Positions 50,095 to 56,200 of a stretch of 64,000 nucleotides of DNA are shown here, one piece after another (positions within the stretch are counted from its first letter, which is position 1; every line of letters starts with the position of its first letter). The position numbers and the translations under genes are program-made. The notes beneath the pieces are model-generated. The model was not told where the DNA came from. It ran no database searches and saw nothing but the letters and a program-made list of their open reading frames with translations. Source of the stretch: Neonectria sp. B-13 (taxonomy: Eukaryota > Ascomycota > Sordariomycetes > Hypocreales > Nectriaceae); contig NOKP01000008.1 of NCBI GenBank assembly GCA_002682825.1, positions 917,595 through 981,594 on the forward strand. The letters are read 5' to 3'.

Positions 50095-51304
50095 TCAGGC
50101 CTGGACACCAGCGGCCTCGACCGGAAGCCTCTGAAAGCCACCTGTTTCGGCAACCTCCTTCTGCAGCTTGGCGATGCGCTTCTGGTCGCCCATGGGGTCG
50201 TTGGACTCGGGCTCCAACACCCACTCTAGGAACGAGTTGGTGTAGTTGGGCTCGAAGCTGGCATCCAGCACGCCCAGGCGCTTGCCGTACTTGGTGACCT
50301 TGGTCCAGTCGCGCTGGACGTTCTTCAGGTCCTTGGAGAAGTAGGCGAAGCTGCGCTCGAAGATCTTGCGGTTCAGGTCGCTGCCCATGACGGGCTTGAA
50401 GGCCACGTACTCGGCCCACGCCGCCTCGGGCTCCGCGAGCACGAAGTCGGTGGCGCGCTTGACGGCGCGCATGAAGGCGCGCGTGTCGGCGGGCCGCTCG
50501 CGCAGGAAGGTCTCGTTGCCGATGTACAGGATGGTGCAAAAGCAGCAGCAGCCGAGTTCGGCGAGCTCGTCGATGCGCAGCATCTGCACGTCGGACTTGG
50601 GGCGGCCCTGGGCAGCGAGCCACTCCTCGAGCTCGACCATCTGGACGTTCTCCAGGCCGATGCCGGCGTCGATCTCGCCGTGGATGATGGCGCGCGAGAC
50701 GTTCATGCCGCAGCGCACGGCCGTGTAGTCGTCGGGCGTCATGCCGTAGTGCGACGTCAGCTCGTCGATCTGGATCTTGCCGAACTCGCCGACGTAGCCG
50801 ATGCGCTTGCCCTTGAGCGTGCGGAAGTCGGTGGTGATGCCCGACGACTTGAGGTAGACGACGCCCGTGAAGGGCTCGTCGAGCAGACTGCCGATGGAGA
50901 GGACCGGGAAGTCACGCGCCTTGGCCTAGAGCATGGCTGGTGTAAGTTGCTGAAGTGATGACTACATCAGGGGAGGAATTCTTACGGCGAGGGTGTGGAT
51001 CATGGCCTTGAAGCCAAGGTCGACTTTTCCAGTTCCGATGATCTCGGTGACATCCTGCATAGGTACATTAGCATCCTGCCATCTTGTACTGCAGTTCCCC
51101 GAGTACCTACACTGGGGTCGTTGGGCTCGAGAAGAGCAACCTTGATGCCTTCATCCTTGAAGTATCCCTTGGCCTGGGCCAGGTACAGCGGGGCGTGGTA
51201 AGGCGTCGCGTGCCTAGCACAACCGTCAACACTCATTCACAAATCTAGCTATAATGTCATCTCCCGTACCAGTTGGTGAGGAAGGTGATCTTGTCAGTCG
51301 ACAT
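50095..51304 (-). CDS. THI5: HMP-P synthase THI5/NMT1 (thiamine pyrimidine synthesis)
   Basis: Exons 51270-51304, 51111-51213, 50986-51054 and 50095-50925 on the minus strand, 345 residues, the usual family length. [30 protein letters not shown] opens the periplasmic-binding-protein-like fold. The diagnostic Cys-rich CCCFC motif is present in [17 protein letters not shown], and the C-terminus FQRLPVEA is typical. The enzyme forms 4-amino-5-hydroxymethyl-2-methylpyrimidine phosphate from its own active-site His and PLP with iron, a single-turnover reaction. A TPP riboswitch lies about 75 nt upstream of the ATG, so thiamine repression at the splicing level is expected. Three introns (54, 56 and 60 nt) all restore frame. 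Confidence 0.96.
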
Positions 51305-51377
51305 GGTGACGGATCAAGCGTAATGCTACTAGGGTCAGTTTGCCAGCCTCACGGGGCGAGAGGGGGGAATCAAAGAA

Positions 51378-51514
51378 GCATGTCCTTTCGCTGGTATTAT
51401 CCAGATCAAGTTCGCCGGTATTTCTCAGATCAACTCCGCTTCACCTGTCTTCCAACATGGCCGGGATGACCATGTTGTGGGAGCAGGCAAAGCAAGAGCC
51501 GAACACCCGGATGC
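51378..51514 (-). promoter_or_regulatory. TPP riboswitch in THI5 5' leader
   Basis: On the minus strand the aptamer parts occur in order: GGGTGT (51508-51503), an extended P3 arm made by an 8-bp perfect inverted repeat CAACATGG/CCATGTTG (51453-51477), CTGAGA (51428-51423), and GATCTGGATAATACC followed by AGCGAAAGG (51407-51383). P1 can pair GCATCC (51514-51509) with GGACATGC (51385-51378). A donor GTGAAG lies inside the element (51444) and a better-exposed donor GTAACG just upstream (51531); an acceptor TAG is at 51331-51329. Two in-frame AUGs sit in the P3 arm. This is the arrangement of Neurospora NMT1, where TPP shifts donor choice and retains upstream ORFs. Confidence 0.93.
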
Positions 51515-51914
51515 GTTCTTTTAAACGTTACCTTGATACGTTGGATTCTTGCGAAGGGTGCCATGTTTGCCTTCTTTGAGGTTTCACATCGTACCGAAAG
51601 TTGGTGTGGTTTGGCGAGGATTGCGTTGAGTGCGGGAAGTATTGAGAATGTTGGTGACGGATCAGAGTTGGAGGAATAGAGCAAAGCTGGGAAGTCCGGC
51701 TTGAAATACTCCTGCTCCTGATGGCAATCACTTAGTCAACCTGCTGAGGCAGTGAGGGGCACCGGGAACTGATCGGATGCTTGATGTCATGGTGAGTGGA
51801 TATTCTGCGAAGGGTCTGCTGCCCTCATTGGTCGTTCGGCTCTAGACGAGGGGAAGATGGCTGATTGTGAGGTTTTGAGGGAGTTTCGATATGCATCTCG
51901 GGCCTTCAGCCGAA

Positions 51915-52364
51915 CTAGCGACGCTTGAGCAGGGGAGCGAGTTCGGCAAGGGAATCTGGTGACGGCTTAGGGCTTGGGATAGTGGACGAGAAATCACGCA
52001 GAGCACAGGAAAGCGACAGGTCATTTGTTGTCTGACGGGAGATAAGAGCCGTTGTTGTCTCGAAGCTGTGGGATGAGGGCCAAGTGGGGACGTGAGGAGA
52101 GTTGAGCATGACGACCCAACGATGATTCAGAAGACGTTCGATTGAATCGTAAAGATAACCGGGTTGCTCACGAAGCGTCTCCCATTTTTCGTAAGCAATT
52201 CGATTCACTTCAACTGCCAAATTCTCTTGGAAGGCAACTGTTATCAATTCCGAGGGTCGGCGTCGGCTTGAGAACCCGACAATGACGTCACTGTGCCCAA
52301 ATAACAGCCAAAGGCAATCAACCCAAAATGTCAGATCATTTAGGCATGAATTGTAGAATCTCAT
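51915..52364 (-). CDS. Possible 149-residue protein, unknown
   Basis: ATG-initiated intronless frame with plausible globular composition (SELITVAFQENLAVEVNRIAYEKWETLREQPGYLYDSIERLL) but no recognised domain. Its low-complexity C-terminal part looks less protein-like, so an intron or different end is possible. It lies directly upstream of the THI5 leader, same strand. Confidence 0.3.
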   Translation of the reverse strand: MRFYNSCLNDLTFWVDCLWLLFGHSDVIVGFSSRRRPSELITVAFQENLAVEVNRIAYEKWETLREQPGYLYDSIERLLNHRWVVMLNSPHVPTWPSSHSFETTTALISRQTTNDLSLSCALRDFSSTIPSPKPSPDSLAELAPLLKRR

Positions 52365-53227: not shown

Positions 53228-56200
53228 CTAATTCTCATTCATTACACCGAGACGTTGAAGCAATTCTGCTCTGTCTTTCTTAAAAGTCTGCTCATCCCTA
53301 CCATCCCATACCGAAGGCTNNNNNNNNNNNNNNNNNNNNNNNNNNNNNNNNNNNNNNNNNNNNNNNNNNNNNNNNNNNNNNNNNNNNNNNNNNNNNNNNN
53401 NNNNNNNNNNNNNNNNNNNGTAGCAGCAGCAGCAAGAGCGCTACCATAGCGTCCACTGGATAGTAAGAGGTTGACCTCAGCCCCATTCTCGATTAGCAAC
53501 TCGACGATCTCCCTCCCCTCATAAGCAGTAGTAGCAGCAGCAAGAGCGCTGCCATAGTATCCACTAGGTAGTAAGAGGTTGACCTTAGCCCCATTCTTGA
53601 TTAGCAACTCGATGATCTCCCTCCCCCCATAAGCAGTAGTAGCAGCAGCAAGAGCGCTACCATAGTGTCCACTGGATAGTAAGAGGTTAACCTTAGCCCC
53701 ATTCTTGATTAGAACTTTGACAATCTCTCTCTCTCCATGACCAGCAGCGGCAGCAAGAGCGCTACCATAGATTCCACTAGGTAGTAAGAGGTTGACCTCA
53801 GCCCCATTCTCGATTAGAAATTCGACGGTCTCCCTCTCTCCATAAACAAGGGCGGCAGCAAGAGCGCTACCATAAGCTCCGCTCAATGGTACGTTGTTAA
53901 TCTGCACTCCTCGTTTAAAAAGTGTCTCGCAGATCAATTTGCAACCTGCTACTGCAGCAAGTGTCAAGAGGTCGTCGCCTTCATCATTCGTTTGTGAGAG
54001 TGTGATTTCTGCGTTCTCCCACCAGTCCCGCAGGACGTAATAGAATGAGAAGCGGCATATTGCGCAAATTGTAACGTCCTCTGGAGAGATTTGCTTCACC
54101 GTGATCCATCTCAGGCGTGATGGCCGTGACGTGACAAAATGCCCGTGCAGGTCACCTTGGCGGGATACTCCACGGTACCATCCACGGTATTGAACACTGC
54201 TGTTTCCAGGGGAACCAAGAAAGCTTTTCAAAAGCTGTACTAGCAAAGGGTCTGCCTTTTGTCCTTCTTTCGCTAGTTGTTCCTCATAGGTTGTGACATG
54301 GACGAACCAGTTATGCAGTAGATATTCTTGAAACAAATGAGCTAGGTCAAACATGTCCTGTGGTTCATAGTCGTGCTCGTCATCCGAGCTCTCGATCTCG
54401 CTTTCGTCGATGGGGTTCTTGTATGTCTCAATCAGAAGCTTGAGACACACTTTGGCAGTGTTACAACATGCCTGCCGAAGGCCCCAGTGGTTGTCTTCAA
54501 AATACTCCATTACCGATAGATGAGAGAACCTCCAAACGCTTTCCTCAGAGTCGAGGACAAGCAGATTGCTGCATACAGCTAACAAATGTTCTTCGGTGAC
54601 CTTGTTGGCTAAGGTGAAATCATTGTGGTCATAATCAACGCGAATTGCGGATAAAAGCTCATCGCTGCTTAGAGCTCTGCAAGCACTCATGACCCACACG
54701 CAGGCGCGATCCACAAGATCTTTCGCATGCTGATGGCTCGCGACTTTCTCGTAAATCTCGTCGTATGCATCTTTGAGTCCGGCTGGAAGTTTCCCGAGCT
54801 TGCTCCGGATATCTTCTTCAGTTGGCAGTTCAAGCACTTGCTTGATCTGCAGGTACGCCCACTGAAACCTGTCATGTCATAAGCTACATACTGAAAGTTT
54901 CTCACCCGAGTAGAACTTACATTCCCTGACTGCGTTCGAGGAGTATGCTGACGATGTCCCTCCGCAGCGGCGCGGATATCGGCCCCCATTGCCTAGGTCT
55001 GTCTATTTCCTCATTGACGAATTTCTCGATATCACCTTGATTGTCTGTAGCTTGGATCTCGAGGTTGGGCCAAGATGTGAAATACCCCTTGATATCGCCG
55101 TCAGGCCGACTTGAAATGAAGATCTTGAGCGGCTGCTCGGATTTGGAGACTAGGTATTGCATCATCTCGACGAGCTGCCAGCGCGACGCTGGGTCGCATT
55201 CATCGAGGGCATCAAGGATGAGGATGGTCTGGGAGTACAGATTCACCGATTCCAGTAGTTGATCCTTACATAAGTCGAAGCCGAGATCCGATCCTTTCAG
55301 CCTCGCTTCACGACAGAGGTCCTGGAGCGGTTTCCGCATGTGTCCAGGATTCCGTACGGAAGTTGACAGTTGGCGAACGTAGCTTTGAAGGACTGAGAGT
55401 GGATTCCGACGCTCATCTTCATTCCGATTGCAGTAGAAGTATGCAAATCCCACTTCTTTCAGCGAGCTTTCTAGCTGAGCTTGAACATGGTCGATGACCT
55501 GGGAAGTAAGAAAAGTTTTACCGGCACCAGCTAGGAAAGTCAGTCTCACAGAAGCCGAGGATGGGGATTGCACTTACGAGAACCTTGAAGCCACAAAATT
55601 GCTGATGAATCGATGTCCCTCCATTCATCGAATTTCTTGTGGTCTAATAACCACTTACATGTGCCGGATGTTCGCGCTTCCTTGACCGTGATGTGATGCT
55701 TTCCATATGGTATGGGCGAAACCCACTCCAGAATATTCAGCTGGTCCTCAGCGTCGATTCTTTCCAGAACTAAGTTACTATAAAAGTATCAGCATTGCCT
55801 TCATTACAGAACTGTGCACATACACCTGATGTTGCATGACCCGGGGGAAGTCTGCTGCAAGCTTGAGAAGTTCTTTAACATGAGTTCGACTTGAAGAATT
55901 ACAATGTTTTTCACAGTCATCTGAAGCTTTTTGTATATGTCCTTGACTCTCCACGAGCGTGTTGACATGGCCTCGCACGGCTTGAAGCTTGAATGCGGCA
56001 TCTATTTTGATATTGCTTCGCTGGCGCTGGACGGTAAAGCCAAGGAACAACTGTGATTTAGCATAAGCTTGAACGATGGATGTTCTCAATTTGCCCAAAG
56101 CGGCCTCGGGCGGACGGAGGGTGGGATCTGGAGCCATATATAGTTGCTGGTATGTGTCACATTGTACGAGGAGCGAAGCTACCTCGGCAATTCCAGCGAG

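Follow-up and report, generated by a model that had tools for sequence, protein, structure and literature searches.

A probable Type I TPP riboswitch in the NMT1/THI5 leader of Neonectria sp. B-13 with candidate splice donors at 51594 and 51531

Introduction

A TPP aptamer lies on the minus strand ahead of the NMT1/THI5 gene in the window (the whole 64,000-nt stretch of Neonectria sp. B-13 DNA that was analysed), and its position raises the question of which splice donors and which upstream AUGs it would control. In the original prediction, the donor at 51531 served at low TPP, the donor at 51444 within the P3 arm served at high TPP, and the AUGs at 51473 and 51458 between them repressed THI5 when retained.

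Two published arrangements of fungal TPP riboswitches provide the standard of comparison. Type I is described in the accessible text of PMC5882874 (Mukherjee et al. 2018), where NMT1 and THI4 are named among its genes, as a distal donor (S1), a short upstream ORF (uORF), a proximal donor (S2), an aptamer within a 5'-UTR intron and an AG ahead of the first coding exon. P4/P5 pairs beside the proximal donor in this arrangement, and the text notes long P3 arms in many fungi. In Type II, according to the same text, the aptamer lies in a large internal intron (650-900 nt) of a urea-type transporter, and the antisense element RGCGGYRRY pairs with the P1 3' strand, not with P4/P5. The Neurospora crassa riboswitches are given in the accessible part of PMC11900860 as a trio, NMT1, THI4 and NCU01977.

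Results

The gene and the aptamer

Exons were joined between the main ATG at 51304 and the coding end at 50095, with introns at 51269-51214, 51110-51055 and 50985-50926. The resulting 345-residue protein matched Pfam NMT1 (247.3 bits) and PDB chains named THI13 and THI5 (E 3.7e-151 to 9.3e-150); its best protein match was 97% identical and named from Neonectria punicea. Searched exon by exon, the protein occurred once in the genome besides a mirror copy (E 0.001; see below). Against viral contigs one stretch fit a pattern and none was confirmed. Features of the leader are collected in Table 1.

Table 1. Features of the NMT1/THI5 leader and of the THI4 leader used for comparison
Feature	Position	Strand	Basis
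Candidate distal donor S1, GTACGA; exon end 51595	51589..51594	-	sequence; THI4 alignment
Minimal uORF AUG-UGA between S1 and S2	51584..51589	-	sequence
uAUG and 11-codon uORF MAPFARIQRIK, identical with the anti-P4/P5 element	51532..51564	-	sequence and folding
Proximal donor S2 (most likely), GTAACG	51526..51531	-	sequence
TPP aptamer (RF00059)	51365..51520	-	48.2 bits, model 1-105
Extended P3 arm; holds AUGs 51473 and 51458 and GTGAAG 51444	51426..51506	-	folding
P4/P5 of aptamer, partner of the anti-P4/P5 element	51385..51410	-	CM alignment and folding
Candidate branch point CTGAC	51334..51338	-	sequence
Shared acceptor AG	51329..51330	-	sequence
NMT1/THI5 gene, 4 coding exons, 345 aa	50095..51304	-	exon joining, Pfam and PDB
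THI4 leader (L004): candidate S1 GTACGG, uAUG, S2 GTAATG	1340, 1370, 1422		
THI4 leader (L004): aptamer; end of AG	1501-1589; 1617		

The TPP aptamer in the NMT1/THI5 leader is real. In a permissive-threshold search of 50900-52000 (1,101 bases), RF00059 was matched at 51520-51365 on the minus strand (48.2 bits, E 4e-8), spanning model positions 1-105 with all 105 matched. The match is below the Rfam gathering score of 54.3, at which the whole 64-kb window returned no Rfam match. The covariance alignment omits 66 sequence positions within P3 where the model has four, and the extended P3 arm plausibly accounts for the score below 54.3. A whole-genome search placed the family at four genomic positions, none above cut-off; with the mirror copy discounted, these represent three elements, in NMT1, THI4 (L004) and a transporter gene (L003). 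An exact-pattern scan for the P4/P5 motif gave no matches in viral contigs and 22 stretches in bacterial and archaeal genomes, all with bacterial titles. The aptamer also contains an imperfect 24-nt tandem repeat (51387-51433, 87% matches), in which the J3/2-P2 strand resembles the P4/P5 strand.

Donor words, acceptor and upstream reading frames

The aptamer is situated between the candidate donors and the AG preceding the NMT1 AUG, and the leader stretch that holds it would be a spliced intron, with CTGAC presumably serving as branch point. The words read by the original prediction (GTGAAG at 51444, GTAACG at 51531, AG at 51330-51329 and AUGs 51473 and 51458 between the donors) were all present. 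What had been overlooked lies upstream of 51531: AUGs 51564 and 51589, and a candidate donor at 51594. The probable switch extends to about 51600, so the proposed extent of 51304-51540 leaves some of it out.

Donors were scored as linear matches to the donor consensus CAG/GTRAGT. Ten GT sites in 51820-51331 had at least five matches: 51444 had seven (best of the ten), 51531 had six (as did two other sites) and 51594 had five. Donor-like words by themselves are not beyond chance here. Among 288 mechanical intron-like patterns GTGAAG occurred three times, and GTACGA, GTAACG and the THI4 S2 word GTAATG did not occur, a table too sparse for scoring donors that, if anything, leans to 51444.

The reading frames depend on the donor used. 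The A of AUG 51589 is the final base of the S1 word, and UGA follows immediately. AUG 51564 stands in the context GCAAACAUGG, and the six exon bases 5' of S2 form the end of the anti-P4/P5 element. A TAG at 51328-51326 lies directly after the acceptor and ends the 51564 uORF when it is spliced from S2, so that with donor 51531 and acceptor 51329 the 11-codon uORF closes 21 nt ahead of the main AUG. In the isoform spliced from 51444, the 51564 uORF is extended to 40 codons, and AUGs 51473 and 51458 read over the main AUG out of frame. Splicing from 51594 would clear the stretch from 51780 to the main AUG of upstream AUGs. Three more AUGs stand farther upstream, in sequence that may be transcribed, at 51896, 51828 and 51790, and the unspliced leader holds eight upstream AUGs from 51896 on.

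Complementarity of P4/P5 to the region at 51531

The MFE fold paired much of 51558-51532 with 51384-51410. In four free leader windows, the helix AUCAAG:CUUGAU (51537-51532 with 51405-51410) had probabilities of 0.965, 0.839, 0.968 and 0.962. The duplex of the 51531 region with P4/P5 scored -17.5, compared with -10.8 in 1000 mononucleotide shuffles (fraction 0.019), and the same comparison for the 51444 region was unremarkable (-15.9 vs -15.1, fraction 0.355). When 51600-51532 was shuffled, the S2 exon flank paired with P4/P5 at a mean of 0.03, compared with the observed 0.97 (reached by 1/200), and upstream pairing of the P4/P5 5' strand fell from 0.92 to 0.16 (0/200). The S1-S2 region resembles the P4/P5 reverse complement to a degree reached by 2/1000 shuffles and by 4/796 window controls, one of which is the region itself. 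The best P4/P5 duplex windows in a scan of the 300 nt upstream also fell at S2, with a score that 63 of 200 shuffles equalled; the same scan was equalled by 8/200 shuffles for THI4 and, for the transporter, by 63/200 with P4/P5 and 43/200 with the P1 side.

Because the anti-P4/P5 complementarity lies directly at 51531, this site is to be read as the proximal regulated donor and not the distal one. Most likely, 51531 is S2, GTACGA at 51594 is the distal donor S1, and the controlled AUGs are 51589 and 51564. The pair originally chosen, with 51531 as the distal low-TPP donor, was probably the wrong one.

The THI4 leader as an internal comparison

The THI4 gene of the same genome (Pfam Thi4, 390.5 bits) was used as an internal comparison. 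Its leader is like that of NMT1 in having S1, a uAUG, an anti-P4/P5 element, S2, the aptamer and the AG. Local alignment of the NMT1 and THI4 S1-S2 blocks scored 65 (0/1000 shuffles); among 797 minus-strand 80-mers of the window only the NMT1 block itself reached this score, and the next stood at 59.5. The NMT1 S1 at 51594 aligned with CGGTACG at the candidate THI4 S1, and the uORF start ATGG(C/A)ACC(C/T)TTCG is common to both genes. It is chiefly this parallel block that places S1 at 51594 and S2 at 51531, and use of S1 at 51594 is accordingly proposed from sequence. The THI4 S1-S2 region resembles the reverse complement of its own P4/P5 (0/1000 shuffles, 0/578 window controls), and its P4/P5 was paired with that region at 0.78, compared with 0.10 in shuffles (1/200). 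P4/P5 is nearly identical in the two genes, so the comparison yields no covariation.

The THI4 leader differs from that of NMT1 in its short P3, in a 20-codon uORF (beginning MEPFGG) whose UGA overlaps the main AUG, and in a second uAUG at 1404, which opens 22 codons reading over the main AUG. After splicing from the proximal donor (L004, 1340-1617), the uORF stop and the main AUG share the overlap AUGA.

The P3 arm and the donor at 51444

The P3 arm folded at -42.2 kcal/mol, compared with -23.0 in shuffles (z -6.9; 0/200 as stable), and the perfect 8-bp stem described earlier was recovered within a ten-pair run of its MFE fold. Donor 51444 (-3 to +6) had a mean unpaired probability of 0.0 in 4/4 leader windows, whether or not the aptamer was forced. 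Since the donor is paired in both modelled states, no ligand-dependent change is predicted there, and its proposed role as the switched high-TPP donor was not borne out. Donor 51444 and the P3 AUGs were rejected as the switch on the basis of this stable helix. As the best linear match of the ten GT sites, 51444 may be used as a minor donor.

Modelled free and ligand-bound leaders

For leaders of 240-340 nt, modelled secondary structures are crude, and agreement and disagreement alike are therefore not decisive. Forcing the aptamer left the S2 exon flank (-6 to -1) unpaired at 0.53, 0.04, 0.84 and 0.14 in the four windows, clearly open in two of them only. The six intron bases of S2 were less open when forced in 4/4 windows (0.50, 0.23, 0.40 and 0.59, compared with 0.65, 0.62, 0.65 and 0.65 when free), as, somewhat, was S1 in three windows (0.37, 0.45 and 0.27, compared with 0.45, 0.54 and 0.62). 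A consistent opening of S2 was thus not seen in these folding models. The energy gap between the free and aptamer states was -6.55 kcal/mol and was equalled by 25/200 shuffles. In THI4, S2 accessibility was unchanged (0.35 and 0.35) when P2, P4 and P5 were forced.

A transporter gene with a Type II-like intron

The third RF00059 element lies in L003. A 462-residue piece of the L003 protein, from two joined exons, matched Pfam SSF (sodium:solute symporter) with 33.2 bits (cut-off 22.8); its match to NCBIfam sss was below cut-off, and the last 347 residues alone gave no Pfam match. The aptamer is carried in an internal intron of this SSF-family transporter gene (1173-1666, 494 nt as read). The word AGCGGTAGC at 1212 fits the published Type II motif and faces GTTGCCGCT at 1602 on the 3' side of the aptamer (duplex -20.8, a value without a control). 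L003 thus resembles Type II, but its 494-nt intron is shorter than the 650-900 nt given in the accessible text of PMC5882874. With this reservation about intron length, the genome appears to hold the same TPP trio as Neurospora crassa.

In Type II (NCU01977 and, with the reservation above, L003) an intronic TPP aptamer is likewise accompanied by an antisense element at a distance, but there the antisense partner is the P1 3' strand, whereas in the NMT1 switch it is P4/P5. Type II was rejected as the class of the NMT1 switch: the gene is NMT1, the aptamer stands before the first AUG and RGCGGYRRY is absent from 51820-51331.

Discussion

A Type I switch at the NMT1/THI5 leader

The leader, as re-read here, fits the published Type I pattern at the level of sequence. 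Its aptamer lies between donor and acceptor sequences, the donors at 51594 and 51531 (the former a weak word) stand around AUGs 51589 and 51564, and P4/P5 is complementary to the region beside the proximal donor, beyond shuffles in the tests aimed at that region and not significantly in the less specific 300-nt scan (63/200). The NMT1 leader would then be a further fungal Type I TPP riboswitch, a kind that is already known. With Neurospora crassa NMT1, as described in the accessible text of PMC5882874, it shares the gene, the placement of the aptamer in an intron of the 5'-UTR, short uORFs flanked by two donors, a single acceptor ahead of the main AUG and P4/P5 complementarity beside the proximal donor; it differs in belonging to another fungus, to which the Neurospora mechanism would thereby be extended.

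We consider it probable that a Type I switch feeds back on NMT1/THI5 through a choice between donors 51594 and 51531, with one acceptor; we infer from the leader's anatomy the use of S1 and S2, the response to TPP, the release of S2 and the effect on translation. When TPP is low, the unliganded aptamer would have its P4/P5 strand paired with the element ending at 51532, directly 5' of S2, which would hide S2; S1 would be used, a 266-nt intron removed and the leader left free of uAUGs from 51780 to the main AUG. When TPP is high, the ligand-binding fold would take up P4/P5, S2 would be freed and a 203-nt intron removed, so that AUGs 51589 and 51564 would be kept in the mRNA. The 11-codon uORF from 51564 would then end at a UAG right after the junction, and little THI5 would be made. 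The general idea of the original prediction, a TPP-controlled donor choice in this leader with uAUGs kept at high TPP, is thereby supported; what changes is which donors and AUGs merit testing.

The three other readings were each judged a good deal less probable. The pair of donors originally proposed, 51531 at low TPP and 51444 at high TPP, is improbable. It draws on the best linear donor match and on the only one of the three donor words found among the intron-like patterns (GTGAAG, 3/288). In the 51444 isoform both P3 AUGs open the same frame, which continues beyond the main AUG, out of frame with it, and would repress strongly; because the donors are 87 nt apart, the retained piece does not close the 51564 uORF, which reaches 40 codons. 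Against this, 51444 is held within the P3 helix in both modelled states, the anti-P4/P5 element marks 51531, and the supposed ON isoform keeps AUG 51564 unless the transcript begins downstream of that AUG, so that use of 51531 would not remove every uAUG.

A switch between splicing and retention, in which 51531 is the one main donor and TPP alters removal of the leader intron, is marginally less improbable. Thiamine inhibits 5'-UTR splicing in Aspergillus oryzae thiA, according to the accessible text of PMC10226581; S1 is a weak donor (five matches), the unspliced leader retains its eight upstream AUGs, and the reduced opening of the S2 intron bases in the forced aptamer state has the sign that retention needs. 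The anti-P4/P5 element has the opposite sign, however, since at low TPP it would cover 51531 on its exon side, and the THI4 block aligns at both donors. That the aptamer is present without regulating anything is very improbable: its score is below the gathering cut-off, and diatom genes with predicted TPP riboswitches have been reported without thiamine regulation (PMC9544697, accessible text), but all 105 model positions are matched here and the leader fits the published pattern.

An antisense element that may double as a uORF

Under the preferred donor pair, 51594 and 51531, the alignable NMT1/THI4 block points to a double role for the anti-P4/P5 element, whose bases would also begin the repressing uORF. 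We put forward only tentatively, as somewhat doubtful, that in each of the two genes a single stretch of bases serves both as the antisense strand and as the inhibitory uORF. Without TPP, such a module would mask the flank of the donor (in some folds together with the uAUG); with TPP, it would act as a repressing uORF. NMT1 and THI4 may have inherited copies of a single ancestral S1-uORF-S2-aptamer cassette. No mention of an antisense element serving as a uORF was found in the accessible text of PMC5882874, PMC7404189, PMC10226581, PMC11900860, PMC11683625 and PMC2467506, a part of the literature whose silence does not establish novelty.

The mirrored scaffold

The window (1-64000) lies within one arm of an inverted copy (contig C105, 728210-1811617). 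Two pieces of the window, of 53,319 and 10,382 bases, recur inverted and 100% identical about 600 kb away, and three of three tested distant mirrored pairs were 100% identical over 4,954, 9,999 and 5,000 bases. The mirrored part runs to the end of the contig, and a 100-N gap lies at its hinge. The inverted copy is most likely a scaffolding artefact, and the second identical NMT1/TPP copy, which lies in the mirrored half, was rejected as independent evidence. The N gap of the window (53320-53419) is not mirrored exactly, being shifted by 199 bases in the mirror copy. It is adjoined by a tandem repeat at 53420-53874 (period 108, 4.3 copies).
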